A stretch of 64,000 nucleotides of DNA from Bacteroidia bacterium. GTDB lineage: Bacteria; Bacteroidota; Bacteroidia; UKL13-3. Below the pieces are notes generated by a model. The model ran no database searches, was not told the DNA's origin, and saw only the letters and a program-made list of their open reading frames with translations. Numbering within the stretch: the stretch's first letter is position 1; each line of letters starts with the position of its first letter. Below are positions 25,757 through 36,559 of this stretch, piece by piece. Location of the stretch: contig JAGVLJ010000013.1 in the NCBI GenBank assembly GCA_020049855.1, positions 62,001 to 126,000 of the forward strand. Direction: 5' to 3'. A program made the position numbers and the translations under genes.

Positions 25757-25870
25757 AGCAAAAAAATATCACCGAAAATTCTTTCCATTCATTCCACTCT
25801 TTAAGTACATTTACGGCTCATGCAACCGGGCGACCTGAATACCAAACGTTCCCTAATTCATATAAAAAAT

Positions 25871-26425
25871 ATGACCAGCAAAAGTTGCGTACGTATAGTA
25901 CGTGAAAATCTGGAACGTATCGGTTTTATACGGGTACATTACGTGGCACTGGGAGAAGCAGAAATTAGTTACGATCCACAAATTATAAGCGAAGGTTTTC
26001 TGGATGCTCTGCTACGAAACAATGGCTTTGAATTAATCACCGATAAAGAAACGAAACTTATTGAGTTAATTAAAACTTCGGTTATTCAACTTATTTATTA
26101 TGGAGGAAACACCAATTCGCTTATAAGAAACTCTGATTACCTGAGTGAGCGATTAGGACACCCATATGCCTACCTGAGCAAATTATTCTCTGAGAAAACA
26201 GGAACTACACTGGAGAAATACATCATTCTTTTAAAGATTGAAAAAATCAAGGAGTTAATCAGCTACGAAGAAATGACCCTGAGTGAAATTTCCTTTCAGA
26301 TGGGATATAGCAGCGTGCAATACCTGAGCAATCAATTCAAACAATTCACCGGTTATTCGGTAACTGATTATAAAAATTTGACAAACAAACCGCGCACAGC
26401 ACTCCACCAAATCATTAACAACTGA
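25871..26425 (+). CDS. AraC-family regulator with N-terminal HMA-like domain
   Basis: C-terminal HTH: MTLSEISFQMGYSSVQYLSNQFKQFTGYSVTDYKNL; N-term CVRIVRENLERIGFIRVHYVALGEAEISYDP. Confidence 0.85.
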   Translation: MTSKSCVRIVRENLERIGFIRVHYVALGEAEISYDPQIISEGFLDALLRNNGFELITDKETKLIELIKTSVIQLIYYGGNTNSLIRNSDYLSERLGHPYAYLSKLFSEKTGTTLEKYIILLKIEKIKELISYEEMTLSEISFQMGYSSVQYLSNQFKQFTGYSVTDYKNLTNKPRTALHQIINN

Positions 26426-26575
26426 TTTTCAAAGTTAATAGCCAGGCTCATGACAATTTCTGCTTGAAATTTTATAACACTTTGCCATTAAACCATAACA
26501 ATCGAACAGCATCTAATGGCCACCTTTGTACCAGCAAATTTCAATTAGTGTACCCTCAATTAAACGTAACACGCC

Positions 26576-26845
26576 ATGAAAATTAAACGAAACATTGCCC
26601 TAAGTGACTCTGGGTTTGTATTTAACCCCACTACGGGCGACTCCTTCTCAACCAACCCAATTGGGATAGAAATTATCAAATTGCTGAAAGAAGGAAAAAA
26701 TGAAGATGAAGTAAAAAAACACTTGATAAAATCCTACATGACCGATGAAGTAACACTTGAAAAAGATTACTACGACTTTGTGAATATGCTACTTAAACTT
26801 CAATTGGCCGAAGGTGATGAAGATAAAGACGAAGCGAAAAATTAA
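26576..26845 (+). CDS. PqqD-like (RRE-fold) peptide chaperone
   Basis: Small protein ALSDSGFVFNPTTGDSFSTNPIGIEIIKLLKEGKNEDEVKKHLIKSYMTDEVTLEKDYYDFVNMLLKLQLAE, typical PqqD fold pattern. Confidence 0.8.
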   Translation: MKIKRNIALSDSGFVFNPTTGDSFSTNPIGIEIIKLLKEGKNEDEVKKHLIKSYMTDEVTLEKDYYDFVNMLLKLQLAEGDEDKDEAKN

Positions 26846-27875
26846 TGTAGCCGTTACGGGACTAAACGCCATTGACAGTCCGGGGCCTGGAATACCTGTA
26901 ATACGTGCGCTTAAAGAAAGTAGTGAGTTTGATGTGCATATCATCGGTCTCTCGTACGAAACACTTGAGCCAGGCATTTACATGCACGATTTGGTGGATA
27001 AAACCTATCAAATACCATTTCCTTCGGCAGGTATTGAAAGTTTACTTACCCGCCTTGGCTATATCAATGCCGTTGAGAAGATTGATGTATTGATTCCAAA
27101 CTTTGATGCGGAGCTATTCAACTTCATGAAACTCACCGAACGCTTAGAAGAAGAAATGGGTATAAAAATGTTTTTACCTACCATTGAGCAGTTTGAAGAG
27201 CGGCATAAATCAAATCTTGCAGAGTTTGGAAAAAAATACGGCATCAAAGTTCCGCACAGTAAAATGATTTTTAATATCTCCGACATACCATCGTTGCGCA
27301 ATGAATTTACATACCCATTAGTGGTAAAAGGAAAATATTACGATGCATCGGTTGCCTACACCCCCGAGCAGGCTGTTACCTGTTTTAATAAAATAAGTAC
27401 CAAGTGGGGCTTGCCCATCATCATTCAGGAGTTTGTTTATGGGCAGGAAGTAAATGTTACAGCCATAGGTGATGGCAAAGGCAATACATTAGGCGCCATA
27501 CCTATGCGAAAGCAATACATTACCGATAAAGGAAAAGCATGGGCGGGCATTTCGCTGGAAGATGAAAAGTTGATAGAGGTAACCGAAAAAGTAATCAAAG
27601 GTTCCAAATGGCGAGGGGGCATGGAAATGGAAATGATTAAAACACGTGATGACGAATATTTCCTTATCGAAATCAATCCGCGATTTCCGGCATGGGTATA
27701 TCTGGCCGTAGGCTGCGGACAAAATCATCCAGAAGCACTTATAAAAATGGCTTTGGGCGAAAAAGTAAAACCATGGAAAAAGTATGATATCGGAAAAATG
27801 TTTATCCGGTATTCGTATGACTTAATTGTAGGATTAGAAGAATTTGAAAAAATCTCAACCCTTGGTGAATTATAA
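26814..27875 (+). CDS. ATP-grasp ligase (carbamoyl-phosphate-synthase/PylC-like)
   Basis: NVAVTGLNAIDSPGPGIPVIRALKE; YPLVVKGKYYDASVAYTPEQA; IIQEFVYGQEVNVTAIGDG; EMEMIKTRDDEYFLIEINPRFPAW; overlaps PqqD ORF. Confidence 0.88.
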   Translation: MMKIKTKRKINVAVTGLNAIDSPGPGIPVIRALKESSEFDVHIIGLSYETLEPGIYMHDLVDKTYQIPFPSAGIESLLTRLGYINAVEKIDVLIPNFDAELFNFMKLTERLEEEMGIKMFLPTIEQFEERHKSNLAEFGKKYGIKVPHSKMIFNISDIPSLRNEFTYPLVVKGKYYDASVAYTPEQAVTCFNKISTKWGLPIIIQEFVYGQEVNVTAIGDGKGNTLGAIPMRKQYITDKGKAWAGISLEDEKLIEVTEKVIKGSKWRGGMEMEMIKTRDDEYFLIEINPRFPAWVYLAVGCGQNHPEALIKMALGEKVKPWKKYDIGKMFIRYSYDLIVGLEEFEKISTLGEL

Positions 27876-27897
27876 AACATAAACCGAAACTTAGAAC

Positions 27898-29256
27898 ATG
27901 AAAAAGATGCAATACGAACGCCCGGTGATTCAGCGCTTGAATACCGGCATAATGAATAAATTCGGCACCCGTACCGAATATGCGCCCGTAACCCATATTG
28001 AAGGAAATGCCGTGAAAGAACTGATTGAAAAATACGGCTCTCCTCTTTTTGTAATTTCAGAAAAAACCATTCGAAACACTTATCGCGAAGCCAACCGTTC
28101 ATTCAACACACGTTACCCTAAAGTACAATTTGCCTGGAGCTACAAAACCAATTACCTGAGTGCCGTATGTAATGTATTTCATCAGGAAGGATCATGGGCC
28201 GAAGTAGTATCCGGTTTTGAATATGAAAAAGCCATTCGGCATGGGGTTCCCGGGAATAAAATTATTTTTAACGGCCCAGATAAAACCGAAGCTGAATTGC
28301 GCACAGCCATTGAGAATGGATCGCCCATTCATATCGATCATTTAGATGAACTTTACCTCATCAAGGAACTATCGGGTGAAATGAAAAAGCGTCCCAAAGT
28401 AGCTATACGGGTAAATATGGATACCGGCATTTACCCAATGTGGGATCGTTTTGGTTTTAACTACGAAAACGGACAGGCATGGGATGCCATTAACAAAATA
28501 ATGCTTTCAAATACTATAGACTTAATTGGGTTGCATTGCCATATCGGAACCTTTATGTTAGCCCCCAGTGCCTACGCAGTGGCAGCCTCCAAATTATGTG
28601 ATTTAGCTATGGGAATTAAAAAGAAATTTAATAAAAACATTCACTACCTGGATTTAGGCGGAGGATTTGCCTCAAAAAATACGCTGAAAGGGTCTTACCT
28701 TCAGGGTGTAGATGCATCACCGGGTTTTGACCAATTTGCCGAAGCAATCAGTACAGCCATCCTGAATGCAGGTTTTGTGGAAGATGAATTGCCCTTGCTA
28801 CTTTTAGAAACAGGAAGAGCTATGATAGATGAAGCGGGCTACCTGCTGGGAACGGTAATTTCAAACAAGCGCCTGTCTGACGGCAGAAGGGCTACCATCA
28901 TGGATTTTGGAGTAAATATTTTATTTACCTCCTTTTGGTACGATCACAAGATAAGCCCTGCACAAGAGTTTAGTCAGTATACTGAAGATGCCGTTTTGTA
29001 CGGCCCCTTGTGTATGAATATAGATGTGGTAAGAGAACATGTAACTTTACCCCCGCTTAAACGAGATGACCAGGTAGTGGTACATACCGTGGGTGCTTAC
29101 AATATGACCCAGTGGATGCAGTTTATTGCACTGCGCCCTGCAATTGTACTGATTGATTGTGATGACAAAGTGCATCAAATTCGCAAAAGAGAAACTGTTG
29201 AAAGTATAGTGAAAGAAGAAATGATGCCCGATTACCTTAAAAGCTTTAAGCTGTAA
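27898..29256 (+). CDS. PLP-dependent alanine-racemase-fold decarboxylase (LysA/ODC group IV-like)
   Basis: FAWSYKTNYLSAVCNVFHQEGSWAEVVSGFEYEKA; GLHCHIGT; HYLDLGGGFA; LLLETGRAMIDEAGYLLGTVI; N-terminal extension MKKMQYERPVIQRLNTGIMNKFG. Confidence 0.88.
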   Translation: MKKMQYERPVIQRLNTGIMNKFGTRTEYAPVTHIEGNAVKELIEKYGSPLFVISEKTIRNTYREANRSFNTRYPKVQFAWSYKTNYLSAVCNVFHQEGSWAEVVSGFEYEKAIRHGVPGNKIIFNGPDKTEAELRTAIENGSPIHIDHLDELYLIKELSGEMKKRPKVAIRVNMDTGIYPMWDRFGFNYENGQAWDAINKIMLSNTIDLIGLHCHIGTFMLAPSAYAVAASKLCDLAMGIKKKFNKNIHYLDLGGGFASKNTLKGSYLQGVDASPGFDQFAEAISTAILNAGFVEDELPLLLLETGRAMIDEAGYLLGTVISNKRLSDGRRATIMDFGVNILFTSFWYDHKISPAQEFSQYTEDAVLYGPLCMNIDVVREHVTLPPLKRDDQVVVHTVGAYNMTQWMQFIALRPAIVLIDCDDKVHQIRKRETVESIVKEEMMPDYLKSFKL

Positions 29257-29265
29257 CAAAAAAGT

Positions 29266-31464
29266 ATGGGTGAGCAATTGAAATTTTGGTTGCAATACTA
29301 CCGCGATGCTACCGTGAACAGCTATGCTCAGATGTTTTTTTCAAACAATCGCTGGTTTGCATTATTGTTGTTACTTGCTTCGTTTGTTGACCCCTTCACC
29401 GGTTTAAGCGGATTAATTGCCCTGCTCATGTCGGTAGCCGCTACACATTGGTTTAAATTTGACCCGGCTTTAAGCCGCAGCGGTGCCTACACCTACAATA
29501 GTTTAATGGTAGGCCTTGCCGTGGGCGTTTATTATACCTTCAACATTCAGTTATTGGTTATTCTGTTGCTCATGTCGGTATTTACGTTACTTATTACCGT
29601 GTGGATGGCTAATATTACACTCAAATCAAATACTCCTTTTTTAAGCCTACCGTTTATTGCCGGAGTGTGGGTAGTTATCCTTAGCACCCGAAATTATGCA
29701 GCAATTGGCTTAAGCGAACGAGGTATTTACACCATAAATGAATTATGGAGCTATGGCGGTGAAACATTGGTAAATTTCTACCAGAAGTTAAATCACCTTC
29801 CAATTCCGGCATTTGTTGATGTGTACCTAAAATCGCTAGGTGCAATCTATTTTCAATACAATATTATAGCTGGAATAGCGATTGCTCTGGGTTTATTGCT
29901 CCATTCGCGCATTTCTTTTTTATTATCGCTGGTTGGTTTTACCACAGGCTACCTGTTTTATCATTTTTTACAGGGAGGGTACTCCGAAATGATGTATAGC
30001 TATATCGGTTTTAATTTTATTCTTTCTGCTATTGCCATAGGTGGCTTTTTCCTTATTCCATCGGGAAGATCATTTTTATTGGTAATTATTTGTACTCCCC
30101 TTATCGCGATCCTTATCAGTGCTCTTGGGTCATTGGTATCGGTTTATCAGTTACCCTTGTATTCACTCCCATTCACCTTAATGGTTATGCTTTTGTTATT
30201 TGTATTACGATTACGATACCAAGAGAGTAAGCCACAACTGGTACTTTTACAACAATATTCCCCCGAAAAAAATCTATACAAACACTTGTATCGAAAAGAG
30301 CGTTTTCAAAATGAGACCTACTTCCATATTCACCTTCCCTTTTTCGGGATATGGCATATCTCACAAGGTCATGATGGCCACATCACCCATTTAGAAGACT
30401 GGAAATATGCATGGGATTTTGTAGTAACAGATGATAATCAAAAAACCTTTAAACTTCCCGGAACTGATGTTACTGATTTTTATTGTTACAACCTGCCCGT
30501 GCTTGCACCTGCTGCCGGATATGTGACAGAAATACTCGATGAAGTAGCCGACAATACTATTGGGAATGTGAACAGAGAGCAAAACTGGGGTAACGCAATT
30601 GTGATAAAACATGGCGAGTTCATGTTTAGTAAAATTACTCACCTAAAAGGTGGCAGTTTAAAAGTAAAAACAGGAGACTACGTAAAAAAGGGGGAAGTTA
30701 TTGCCACTTGTGGAAATTCGGGACGCTCACCTGAACCACATATCCATTTTCAGCTACAGGCAACACCATACATCGGTTCTAAAACATTGCGCTACCCTAT
30801 CAGTTACTATGTGAGTTACAAAAATAACGCAGTCACTTTTCATGCTTTTGATTATCCAAAGCAGGGAGAATACATAGCACGTGTAGCAGCCACCCCGCTG
30901 ATAAAAAATGCCTTTCAATTTATACCTGGAGAAGAATTAATGTTTGAGTATGTTAACGAAAATGGAACAAAAGAAACCCTTAAGTGGGAAGTATTTACCG
31001 ATGCCTGGAATAACTCTTACCTGTACTGCCACAACAGCAAATCAACCGCCTGGTTTGTAAACAACGAAACCCTCCACTACTTCACCGATTTTGAAGGAGA
31101 CAAAAAATCGATGCTCTACGCATTTTACCTTGGGGCACATAAAATACTAATGGGATATTATCCGCAAATAGAATTAACAGATCACCTTCCCATTGAAGGT
31201 TTTTTTCAAGGACCTGTAAAATACCTTCAAGACATTTTTGCTCCGTTTTATCTTTTTTTACATGGCGATTACTCTATGAAATTTACTTTTGCTGACGAAC
31301 AAATACAACCTGAAATCATTACAATTGAAAGCAGTGCCACGGCTTATATCGGAAAAACCCGCAGCCGAAATATGAAGTTTAAAATAATCCTTCAAGAAAA
31401 TCATATTGCCGAGTTTACTATTACCGAAAAGGGGGAAACCAGAACAGCCAAATGGATAAATTAA
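29266..31464 (+). CDS. Urea-transporter-family membrane domain fused to M23-type peptidase domain
   Basis: N-term multi-TM FVDPFTGLSGLIALLMSVAATHWF..SGAYTYNSLMVGLAVG; C-term VKTGDYVKKGEVIATCGNSGRSPEPHIHFQLQ (HxH of M23). Confidence 0.82.
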   Translation: MGEQLKFWLQYYRDATVNSYAQMFFSNNRWFALLLLLASFVDPFTGLSGLIALLMSVAATHWFKFDPALSRSGAYTYNSLMVGLAVGVYYTFNIQLLVILLLMSVFTLLITVWMANITLKSNTPFLSLPFIAGVWVVILSTRNYAAIGLSERGIYTINELWSYGGETLVNFYQKLNHLPIPAFVDVYLKSLGAIYFQYNIIAGIAIALGLLLHSRISFLLSLVGFTTGYLFYHFLQGGYSEMMYSYIGFNFILSAIAIGGFFLIPSGRSFLLVIICTPLIAILISALGSLVSVYQLPLYSLPFTLMVMLLLFVLRLRYQESKPQLVLLQQYSPEKNLYKHLYRKERFQNETYFHIHLPFFGIWHISQGHDGHITHLEDWKYAWDFVVTDDNQKTFKLPGTDVTDFYCYNLPVLAPAAGYVTEILDEVADNTIGNVNREQNWGNAIVIKHGEFMFSKITHLKGGSLKVKTGDYVKKGEVIATCGNSGRSPEPHIHFQLQATPYIGSKTLRYPISYYVSYKNNAVTFHAFDYPKQGEYIARVAATPLIKNAFQFIPGEELMFEYVNENGTKETLKWEVFTDAWNNSYLYCHNSKSTAWFVNNETLHYFTDFEGDKKSMLYAFYLGAHKILMGYYPQIELTDHLPIEGFFQGPVKYLQDIFAPFYLFLHGDYSMKFTFADEQIQPEIITIESSATAYIGKTRSRNMKFKIILQENHIAEFTITEKGETRTAKWIN

Positions 31465-32618
31465 TTTTTTATTTTTTCTCTGTATTCTTTATGGTTCCGC
31501 ATTTTTTAAAGGCACAGGATGAACCGATTTTCGATTCAAAAATGGTAGAAGATTCTACTTACAGGTTTTATTTAGATGGCGACTGGTGGAGTGTAATCTC
31601 ATATGGTGAGGCCGCATTAAAAGAAAACATTGATTACTATTACCTTCGTATGCGGTTGGGTATTGCCTATTATAAATTAGGAAGATTCAGAATGGCTATT
31701 CCTCATTTTGAAAAAGCCAATGAAATGAATCAGTTAGAAGAGGGCGCAAAGGAATATTTATATTGGTGTTATATTTACTCTGATAGGTTTGAAGATGCGG
31801 GAAAGTTGAGTAAAACATTTTCGGCAGAAACCGCGAAAAGTGCAGGAACAGAAAAGCAAAAATCGATTGCATTCTTCCTGCTGGAAAGCGGAACAAAAAT
31901 AGCCGACAAATCAAGTCTATTTGATCCCTTATGGTACATGCAGGGAGGAACCGGACACATGCTTAAAAAACAGATTTACTTTTTTCAAAGTGCCACTTTT
32001 TTAAGCCAAAATACGTACTGGGGCAGCTATAAGCAACTGGAATATTATGCAAAAGTGAATATGCCCATTGCAAAGAGTTGGTGTTTAGCCCCTGCCTTTC
32101 ATATTACAAACCTTAATGCCTCTCCATACTCAAACAGCACGTATTTCTTAGGTTCGTTAAATGCAACAAAGCAACTGAAGTTATTTCAACCTCACCTTAA
32201 TGCCTCCTGGTCCAATCTTTTTGGAACCTCCCAAATTCAAACTGGGACAGGCTTAAAATATTATCCCTTTGGAAATAATAATTTATGTATAGCCGTTTCT
32301 GCCAATGTGCTTGTGCCTTCAACCGGAAATGCAGCCTTTCATTTTCAACATAACGTAAGTTACGCACCAAATATAAAATGGACATTTAGCGGATGGTTCT
32401 ATCATGGCAACGCTTATTTGTTTAATGAGAACAATGGATACTTAGTTAATAGTTCGTATGATTTATTACGTAACCGAAGTTCACTGATGGCTACCTATAG
32501 TTTACACCGCCATCTTGATATTTATACGTTGATTCAGAACGAGCAAAAAACAGAATATTTTAATGGAAACAATTATCAGTTCAATAATTTTATTTTAGGA
32601 ATTAAATATATCCCGTGA
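31452..32618 (+). CDS. TPR protein with outer-membrane-like C-terminus
   Basis: Signal peptide; YYYLRMRLGIAYYKLGRFRMAIPHFEKANEM TPR; beta-rich C-term ending FILGIKYIP; overlaps upstream gene. Confidence 0.72.
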   Translation: MDKLIFYFFSVFFMVPHFLKAQDEPIFDSKMVEDSTYRFYLDGDWWSVISYGEAALKENIDYYYLRMRLGIAYYKLGRFRMAIPHFEKANEMNQLEEGAKEYLYWCYIYSDRFEDAGKLSKTFSAETAKSAGTEKQKSIAFFLLESGTKIADKSSLFDPLWYMQGGTGHMLKKQIYFFQSATFLSQNTYWGSYKQLEYYAKVNMPIAKSWCLAPAFHITNLNASPYSNSTYFLGSLNATKQLKLFQPHLNASWSNLFGTSQIQTGTGLKYYPFGNNNLCIAVSANVLVPSTGNAAFHFQHNVSYAPNIKWTFSGWFYHGNAYLFNENNGYLVNSSYDLLRNRSSLMATYSLHRHLDIYTLIQNEQKTEYFNGNNYQFNNFILGIKYIP

Positions 32619-33235
32619 GTATGAAACGCATCATCATTTTAGCCATTACCTGTGCCGCTTACATTTCAAATGTATTTGCACAAAACGAAGCCAAATTACA
32701 AGCTGCTTTCAGCAAAAGCTATCAGCATGAGAATAGTGCAGATTACAAAAGTGCAATTAATGCCGTAAAGGAAGTCTACGAGGAAACAAACTACGATGCA
32801 AACTTAAGAATGGGTTGGTTAACATATAAGGCAGGAATGTACACCGAGTCAATGGGATATTATGCAAAATCCATTAATCTGATGCCTTACTCAATTGAAG
32901 CTAAACTTGGGTACGTAAATCCGGCTGCCGCGGCAGGATTATGGGAAAAAGTAATTGACCAATACCATAAAATTCTGGTTATTGACCCACAAAATACTAC
33001 AGTGAATTATAGAATGGGATTGTACTGTTACAACAAGAAAGACTATAAATCGGCTTATGGTTATTTTGAGAAAGTGGTGAACCTCTATCCTTTTGACTAT
33101 GACAGTGAATTAATGTTTGCCTGGACTAACTTTCAACTGGGTAAATTCAGAGAAGCTAAAATCATTTTTAATAAAGTTTTGTTAATGTCTCCGGGTGATA
33201 AATCGGCTTTGGAAGGATTATCATTGATAAAATAA
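32615..33235 (+). CDS. Periplasmic TPR protein
   Basis: Signal peptide; DPQNTTVNYRMGLYCYNKKDYKSAYGYFEKVVNLYP; 4-nt overlap with upstream gene. Confidence 0.75.
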   Translation: MSMKRIIILAITCAAYISNVFAQNEAKLQAAFSKSYQHENSADYKSAINAVKEVYEETNYDANLRMGWLTYKAGMYTESMGYYAKSINLMPYSIEAKLGYVNPAAAAGLWEKVIDQYHKILVIDPQNTTVNYRMGLYCYNKKDYKSAYGYFEKVVNLYPFDYDSELMFAWTNFQLGKFREAKIIFNKVLLMSPGDKSALEGLSLIK

Positions 33236-33249
33236 GAAAACGGCTATTG

Positions 33250-34137
33250 TTATTCGGGCAGTTGGTTAATGAATGTCGTGAAATGTGACATATCCTGCAT
33301 TAATTGCACATTTTTGGGCGTTTTTAATTCCACATTTTCTATTTGTTTCCCAAATAATAGAATACTTGCTTTGGGCCATGAAATGGAAAGTTCTGTAACA
33401 AATAAATTCAACTCTTTTAAAGTAATGGCACTTGTAAGTGAAGTTACTACGTACCGCGGGGTATGAAAAGCAAATACTTCTTTCAGTTCGCTATGCGGCA
33501 AACTTTGCCCCAAATAAATTACCTGATGCCCCCTTGATCTGAGCATATAATTGGCAAACAACAACCCAAGTTCATGGGGTTCGCCTTCGCGCAAAAACAG
33601 TAAAAATTTCTCCTTACCCGAATCTTGATTCAACACCTGACCATCAATAGCCACATATAATTTTTGTTTAATCAGGTTAGTGATAAAGTGTTCATGAGCC
33701 GGCTGAATAGACCCAATTTGCCATAATACACCAACCTCATGCATAAAGGGGAAAATTACATGTATCATGGTATTTTCCAAACCCTGCTGCAAAATGGTTG
33801 TGGTAAGTATATGATTAAAGCCGACCTCATTAAGCAGAAGCATGCTGGATACAAGTAATTTTACTTGGTTAGGGTACTCTCTATTTTTTTCACTCACCTC
33901 AAGTACAGCCGTTTCAATTTGTGCGGGAGTCATTTTTGCTATACCCGAAATTTTCACCCCGCTACTATTAAGTGTACTGATATTCAGAATAAGACGGAGG
34001 TCTTCATCGTCATAATAACGTATGTTGGTTTTGGTGCGCTTAGGCCTAATAATAGCATAGCGCTGCTCCCACACCCGTAGCGTGTGACTTTTTATTCCGG
34101 TAACGGATTCGATATCTTTTATTGAAAACTTCGACAA
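33250..34137 (-). CDS. MerR-family regulator with cobalamin-binding domain (CarH/LitR-like)
   Basis: FSIKDIESVTGIKSHTLRVWEQRYAIIRPKRTKTNIRYY MerR HTH; WQIGSIQPAHEH (Wx9EH); EPHELG (ExHxxG). Confidence 0.9.
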   Translation of the reverse strand: MSKFSIKDIESVTGIKSHTLRVWEQRYAIIRPKRTKTNIRYYDDEDLRLILNISTLNSSGVKISGIAKMTPAQIETAVLEVSEKNREYPNQVKLLVSSMLLLNEVGFNHILTTTILQQGLENTMIHVIFPFMHEVGVLWQIGSIQPAHEHFITNLIKQKLYVAIDGQVLNQDSGKEKFLLFLREGEPHELGLLFANYMLRSRGHQVIYLGQSLPHSELKEVFAFHTPRYVVTSLTSAITLKELNLFVTELSISWPKASILLFGKQIENVELKTPKNVQLMQDMSHFTTFINQLPE

Positions 34138-35251: not shown

Positions 35252-36559
35252 ATGATAAAAGAAAAGATTAATATTGTTTGGTTAAGGCGCGATTTGCGCT
35301 TGCACGATCAGGCGGCTTTATACCATGCCCTGAAGGCCGGTTTCCCGGTGCTTCCGCTTTTTATTTTTGACACAAATATTCTTAACAAGCTGCAAGACCG
35401 CGATGATGCCCGCGTGAGTTTTATTCATCAAACATTACGAAACCTAAAAAAACAACTGGAGGAAAAAGGTTCTTCGTTAATAGTAAAACACCAAACTCCA
35501 ATTGAATCGTGGAAAGGGTTATTAAGTGAATTCAATGTGCAGGCTGTGTACACCAACCACGATTACGAACCTTATGCCCGGGAAAGGGATGCTATCGTCA
35601 AAACATTTCTAAACGAAAAGGGGATTCATTTTTATACGTATAAAGACCAGTGCATTTTTGAAAAAGGTGAAATCAGTAAAGATGACGGAAAACCGTATAC
35701 CGTTTTTACTCCTTACAGCAAAAAATGGAAGGCTAAACTGAATGATTTTTACCTGAAATCTTATCCTACCGAAAAGTATTTTAGTAATTTTTATCAAACA
35801 GCCCCCTTGCCAATAATAAGTCTGAAAGAAATGAATTTCAGTCAAAATTCGCTGGAGATTCCTCCGGTACATACCCACACCCTACTCATTAAACACTATA
35901 AAGAGCAAAGGGATTTTCCATCGGTAGCCGGCACCAGCAAACTAAGTATACATTTCAGGTTTGGAACCATCAGCATCAGGGAGAAAGCTAAAAAAGCACT
36001 ATCCCTCAGCGAAACCTGGTTGAATGAACTGATATGGCGGGATTTTTACCAGCAAGTACTCTGGCACTTTCCACACGTGGCAACAAGCGCTTTCAAACCC
36101 GCCTATAACCGCATTGAATGGAGAAACAACCCCGAAGAATTTGAACGCTGGTGCAATGGAGAAACGGGTTACCCTATTGTAGATGCAGGTATGCGTGAAT
36201 TGAACGCAACAGGTTTTATGCATAACCGCGTGCGCATGATTGTAGCCAGCTTTCTTACCAAACATTTATTGATTGACTGGCGATGGGGCGAAGCCTATTT
36301 TGCAAAAAAACTGCTGGACTTTGATCTGGCCGCCAACAACGGGGGCTGGCAATGGGCAGCCGGTTGCGGTACAGATGCCGCACCTTATTTCAGGGTATTT
36401 AATCCGGCCCTGCAAACAGAAAAATTTGATAGGGATCATCGCTACATAAAAAAATGGGTGCCGGAGTATAACACACCTGCCTATGTAAAACCAATTGTGG
36501 AACATAATCTGGCCAGAGAGCGTTGCCTTAAAACTTATAAGGAAGGGCTTGCCTCTTAG
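35252..36559 (+). CDS. Deoxyribodipyrimidine photolyase/cryptochrome family
   Basis: INIVWLRRDLRLHDQAALYHAL; TGYPIVDAGMRELNATGFMHNRVRMIVASFL; AANNGGWQWAAGCGTDAAPYFRVFNP. Confidence 0.96.
   Translation: MIKEKINIVWLRRDLRLHDQAALYHALKAGFPVLPLFIFDTNILNKLQDRDDARVSFIHQTLRNLKKQLEEKGSSLIVKHQTPIESWKGLLSEFNVQAVYTNHDYEPYARERDAIVKTFLNEKGIHFYTYKDQCIFEKGEISKDDGKPYTVFTPYSKKWKAKLNDFYLKSYPTEKYFSNFYQTAPLPIISLKEMNFSQNSLEIPPVHTHTLLIKHYKEQRDFPSVAGTSKLSIHFRFGTISIREKAKKALSLSETWLNELIWRDFYQQVLWHFPHVATSAFKPAYNRIEWRNNPEEFERWCNGETGYPIVDAGMRELNATGFMHNRVRMIVASFLTKHLLIDWRWGEAYFAKKLLDFDLAANNGGWQWAAGCGTDAAPYFRVFNPALQTEKFDRDHRYIKKWVPEYNTPAYVKPIVEHNLARERCLKTYKEGLAS

Follow-up and report, generated by a model that had tools for sequence, protein, structure and literature searches.

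The window analysed here, a stretch of 64,000 nucleotides from a Bacteroidota genome of 2.9 Mb in 84 contigs, carries a cassette encoding a PqqD-like protein, an ATP-grasp ligase, a PLP decarboxylase, a fusion of a urea-transporter (UT) domain with an M23 metal-hydrolase domain, and two TPR proteins. We find that this cassette is a genuine recurrent unit, present all together or absent, in about 9% of the sampled Bacteroidota genomes. Its novelty lies in the system as a whole, as each domain alone belongs to a known family.

An ORF check confirms seven co-directional ORFs at 25820–33235, all on the forward strand, and Pfam and NCBIfam matches back the identities given in an earlier sequence-only reading (AraC helix-turn-helix, PqqD, ATP-grasp, decarboxylase, UT plus M23, and TPRs). 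That reading also proposed a single operon at 26576–33235 preceded by a regulator, and both parts hold: the six genes overlap or lie no more than 22 nt apart, with 150 nt between the end of the AraC ORF and the start of the PqqD-like gene. Specifically, the PqqD-like and ATP-grasp genes overlap, gaps of 22 and 9 nt separate the ATP-grasp gene from the decarboxylase and the decarboxylase from UT-M23, and overlaps of 13 and 4 nt join UT-M23 to the first TPR gene (TPRbb) and TPRbb to the second (TPR2). A convergent gene lies 15 nt past the end of TPR2.

The cassette proteins were searched for in 396 Bacteroidota genomes. Decarboxylase orthologues with E < 1e-140 are found in 34 of these, the next matches being paralogues near 1e-43. 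The ligase, the decarboxylase, and the full UT-M23 fusion occupy an identical set of 34/396 genomes from 27 genera, and the chance of such identical sets is about 10^-49 under independence and with phylogeny ignored. The order PqqD, ligase, decarboxylase, UT-M23 is kept in all 33 other host loci, with the TPR genes in most. A scan of species genomes returned at least 581 matching stretches (stretches, not species), of which the best 80 were inspected. Among these best 80 of at least 581, every locus of sufficient length (73/73) has PqqD and the ligase next to the decarboxylase, and UT is found in 75/79 loci, M23 in 72/75, TPRbb in 65/71, and TPR2 in 59/67. The PqqD/ligase, UT-M23/TPRbb, and TPRbb/TPR2 overlaps also recur, mostly at 4–29 nt. 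As such, the earlier expectation that homologues of the PqqD-like, ligase, and decarboxylase genes co-occur in other genomes is confirmed by both searches. Some loci (L039 and L063) have no detectable TPR or barrel genes, which counts against the preferred reading given below. In one genome, cassette genes at both ends of a contig probably reflect a circular chromosome whose assembled ends overlap.

The protein encoded before the operon (25820–26425; HTH_18, E 4e-14) was correctly read as an AraC-type regulator, while the start first given to it, 25871, is the second in-frame ATG. The start at 25820 completes an N-terminal HMA-like domain, which scores below the Pfam cut-off. Homologues with this HMA-AraC arrangement lie upstream of the cassette in 17 loci, and the protein is probably a regulator outside the core; a minority of loci keep it ahead of the cassette. 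The first core gene (26576–26845) encodes a stand-alone PqqD-like protein that reaches 34.8 bits against PF05402 (cut-off 23.4) and keeps the PqqD core—i.e. it has the RRE fold expected of RRE-dependent RiPPs. Its best solved relative is the lasso-peptide RRE TbiB1 (E 3e-13), and its C-terminal tail varies in length and sequence across loci.

The ATP-grasp ligase (26814–27875) is PRK12767/carbamoyl-phosphate-synthase-like, with catalytic-type residues K172, E273, E286, N288, and R290 conserved across 107 sequences; among solved structures, its relatives are carbamoyl-phosphate synthetase and 2pn1. It differs from a graspetide-type ATP-grasp enzyme with a core-peptide precursor in that it matches PRK12767/PF15632 and has no precursor beside it, and the searched passages of a graspetide survey hold no mention of such a cluster (PMC8939145).

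The decarboxylase (27898–29256) has the alanine-racemase fold, matches Orn_Arg_deC and Orn_DAP_Arg_deC, and finds its best PDB match in 7kh2, an N-citrylornithine decarboxylase (E 3e-55). Its active site, which resembles that of N-citrylornithine decarboxylase, comprises K83 (the PLP lysine), H213, GGG254–256, T344, and C372–M373, and Lys83, His213, the Gly loop, R307, and Cys372 are kept among 112 decarboxylase sequences. The Glu of the CES motif and the Arg of the RP motif, which we take to be the DAP-binding residues of DAP decarboxylases, are replaced by M373 (112/112) and T344 (110/112), and the score against the lysA model, 214 bits, is below its cut-off of 297.9. The host genome encodes a separate LysA that exceeds the curated cut-off and has CET and RP in place. 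The earlier suggestion that DAP or a free basic amino acid is decarboxylated is thus not borne out, given the near-invariance of M373 and T344 and the presence of a LysA of the genome's own. In a printed alignment, N-citrylornithine decarboxylase shares the C-M and T at these positions. The FigC/FslC enzymes of the rhizoferrin pathway are like the cassette enzyme in their fold, in C-M at the catalytic Cys loop, and in T replacing the presumed DAP-binding Arg. However, the cassette enzyme reaches 226 bits against the FslC model, whose cut-off is 500, and the cassette contains neither an NIS synthetase nor a siderophore receptor. The clade of FigC/FslC, SbnH, MccE, and BtrK includes enzymes acting on citryl-amino acids, a microcin C intermediate, and carrier-bound glutamate, and it also holds DAP and D-ornithine decarboxylases (PMC7857480). 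A tree of the cassette decarboxylase with reference decarboxylases has long branches and does not settle where the enzyme falls. Because the presumed DAP-binding residues are replaced and the N-citrylornithine-decarboxylase clade acts on conjugates, sequence comparison suggests that a conjugated amino acid is a likelier substrate than a free basic one.

The UT-M23 fusion (29266–31464; 732 aa) is recognized by Pfam and has an AlphaFold model (mean pLDDT 90) that matches dvUT/UT-B and M23 structures. Its UT channel domain (29305–30204, residues 14–313; E 6e-55) has 10 TM helices and aligns over all 10 of dvUT, and as such has the full-length fold of urea transporters. Unlike dvUT and UT-B, it is fused to M23 and has an altered urea slot (A193, S127, and S300). 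Specifically, at the position of dvUT Glu187, the 103 cassette UTs carry Ala (71), Ser (13), Leu (11), or other residues (8), none of them acidic; both slot threonines are kept in 0/103, Ser being the most frequent replacement, and Q22 is kept in 77/103. The slot Gln, Glu, and Thr of urea transporters are thus not found together in the cassette UTs. Three stand-alone Bacteroidota UTs that we examined retain all of these residues. Unfused UTs are seen in ten cassette-free genomes, and in cassette genomes the UT matches fall inside the cassette. Urease is present in only 1/34 host genomes and absent from the other 33.

The M23 domain (30490–30759, residues 409–498 by Pfam; E 1e-15) has invariant metal-site residues (H375, D384, H459, H492, and H494), as expected of a metal-binding M23 protein. 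In solved UT homologues, the termini are cytoplasmic. Based on the model helices, the K+R density of the loops is 13.4% on the terminus side vs 3.1% on the other, and the direction is the same in 103/103 sequences. Given this bias and an AlphaFold model in which no TM helix separates UT from M23, M23 is predicted to lie in the cytoplasm, provided that the positive-inside rule holds here. The cell-wall interaction first suggested for UT-M23 finds no support in this topology, under which M23 would not be exported to the cell wall, although its unfused relatives are: an export signal is seen by eye in 5/6 of the nearest stand-alone M23 proteins, which speaks against a cytoplasmic M23. In genome G005 (L039 and L159), UT and M23 lie in two frames. 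Each frame aligns with the fused protein, and the break is flanked by an A6 and a T7 run, so that a frameshift, real or from sequencing, is likely; the split is therefore not counted as evidence that M23 sits unsigned in the cytoplasm.

Both TPR proteins had been read as TPR envelope proteins. This stands for TPR2 (32615–33235), which has a signal peptide (by eye) and TPR repeats by Pfam and NCBIfam, while TPRbb (31452–32618) is now read as combining a TPR domain with an outer-membrane barrel. Its AlphaFold model (pLDDT 87) has eight helices, including a signal peptide also seen by eye, a TPR domain of about 100 residues, and 14 strands. Foldseek matches it to OmpG (TM-score up to 0.71 over OmpG), FadL, BcsC, and PelB, and TPRbb models as an OmpG-like 14-strand barrel with TPRs. 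It is like BcsC and PelB in pairing periplasmic TPRs with an outer-membrane barrel and like OmpG in its strand number. However, its TPR domain is short, its full-protein TM-score is low, including against the TPR-barrel exporters BcsC and PelB, and the cassette includes no polysaccharide synthase. A second clade has a barrel-like protein of about 280 residues after TPR2 instead, its barrel being read from sequence and a weak Porin_4 match.

The upstream neighbours of the cassette vary, and include HMA-AraC proteins, LytTR response regulators and hybrid kinases (the latter two by eye), and secreted proteins with T9SS tails. For example, a 280-residue secreted family with a Por secretion tail lies directly upstream of PqqD in 10 loci and close by in a further two, and a 267-residue T9SS-tailed family is upstream in two loci and inside the operon in another (L143). 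A T9SS-tailed secreted protein of about 1270 residues, whose N-terminal half looks papain-like by eye and has no Pfam match, is upstream of PqqD in four loci. A secreted-protein gene also separates PqqD from the ligase in L143 (the 267-residue T9SS-tailed protein) and in L063 (a 661-residue repeat protein). In five loci, a gene of the IF-2B family (MtnA/eIF2B-like) lies between the decarboxylase and UT. These neighbours may point to function, though they are not universal. T9SS co-occurrence was rejected as a functional link: SprA is found in 34/34 hosts and is uninformative because it is also present in most sampled genomes (118/149; 81/84 genera).

Our preferred reading, which we hold tentatively and at somewhat less than even probability, is that cytoplasmic enzymes of the cassette build a small compound from an amino acid and that the product then passes through both membranes of the envelope. 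The ligase, docked on the PqqD-like protein, would link an amino acid to a partner through an amide bond, and the decarboxylase would then strip the alpha-carboxylate of the conjugate to leave a free amine. The M23 domain, on the cytoplasmic side of the channel entrance, could release or trim the product, the UT domain with its altered slot would pass it over the inner membrane, and the TPR proteins with the 14-strand porin-like barrel would carry it through the outer membrane. Here, we infer the reactions, their order, the substrate, and the direction of transport, while the cytoplasmic M23 and the barrel fold are supported by sequence rules or models. Export by this envelope route would be plausible. 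Against it, export would need a gradient because UT channels are passive, and the UT pore may be too narrow for the conjugate. A more specific version is rather doubtful—i.e. a new biosynthesis-coupled export in which a PqqD-organised ligase-decarboxylase pair feeds M23 on a repurposed urea channel and a TPR-barrel exit, yielding a Bacteroidota metabolite or surface amine that perhaps acts on T9SS-delivered surface proteins in some lineages.

It is unlikely, though less so than the other alternatives, that the PqqD-like protein recognizes a leader on a ribosomally made peptide or protein, encoded elsewhere or by an adjacent T9SS-tailed gene, which the ligase and decarboxylase modify before export. 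Its closeness to TbiB1 fits such a role, as do the secreted T9SS-tailed genes directly upstream of PqqD, the secreted-protein genes between PqqD and the ligase in L143 and L063, and the action of MccE, from the same decarboxylase clade, on a peptide conjugate (PMC7857480). However, more than 100 loci show no conserved small ORF near the cassette, the recurring matches looking antisense or like fragments of known genes, and a standard RiPP is unlikely because no precursor peptide was found; the peptide product considered in the sequence-only reading has no precursor gene here to back it. Unlike lasso-peptide B1 and PqqD leader-binding proteins, the cassette comes without a precursor, cyclase, radical-SAM enzyme, or leader peptidase, and it contains no dedicated ABC exporter. 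In most loci, and also in the window, the cassette has no T9SS cargo beside it, and the two small families of T9SS-tailed secreted proteins are not supported as homologues (hhalign probability 12.9%).

We give a lower probability to modification of the envelope, in which the decarboxylated amine would be added to lipid, a surface glycan, or peptidoglycan, the last being remodelled by M23, and the UT, TPR, and barrel parts would position or flip the product. The intact M23 metal site, the exported M23 relatives, and the resemblance of the TPR barrel to the exopolymer exporters BcsC and PelB are consistent with this, but the predicted topology keeps M23 in the cytoplasm and the cassette conserves no glycosyltransferase, flippase, or polymerase.

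Improbable, too, is a carrier pathway: a substrate would be attached covalently to the PqqD-like protein, decarboxylated there, and then freed by M23. Butirosin BtrI/BtrJ/BtrK work in series as a small protein, a ligase, and a decarboxylase of alanine-racemase fold, and BtrJ is an ATP-grasp enzyme. Unlike that system, the cassette has a PqqD fold rather than an acyl carrier protein and no aminoglycoside genes, and Pfam finds no phosphopantetheine carrier domain in it. The small protein, ATP-grasp enzyme, and metal hydrolase also follow the logic of LysW/LysX/LysK, and LysX loads LysW (PMC10433800). BtrK decarboxylates carrier-bound glutamate (PMC7857480). However, LysW needs a conserved C-terminal Glu (EDWGE), and the cassette has no such residue, lacks LysZ/Y/J, and has a decarboxylase instead; the PqqD-like protein is ruled out as a LysW-like carrier because its tail is not conserved. 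Uptake of urea or a small amide for nitrogen metabolism is very improbable, as UT family membership is set against the near-absence of urease, a pore altered in 103/103 sequences, and ordinary stand-alone UTs that are confined, in this sample, to genomes without the cassette.

The cassette fits no family tested, in line with the earlier view that no standard RiPP class has this composition, and it has no PADLOC match as a defence system. Our literature search of open-access PMC papers found no description of such a system and none assigning the ligase/decarboxylase pair to a known pathway. Present in 27 genera, the cassette is without a described counterpart in the searched libraries and open-access papers. 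If the preferred reading of synthesis followed by export is true, it would imply that the product belongs to a new class of metabolites, that the urea-transporter fold can serve something other than urea, that an M23 hydrolase can work in the cytoplasm, and that a PqqD-fold protein can function without a precursor peptide.

Downstream of the cassette, the window encodes a MerR plus B12-binding regulator on the reverse strand (33250–34137), which is CarH-like at 98 bits (cut-off 400) and in which Wx9EH and ExHxxG motifs are seen by eye. A deoxyribodipyrimidine photolyase gene lies nearby on the forward strand (35252–36559), and the two are likely a light-response pair.
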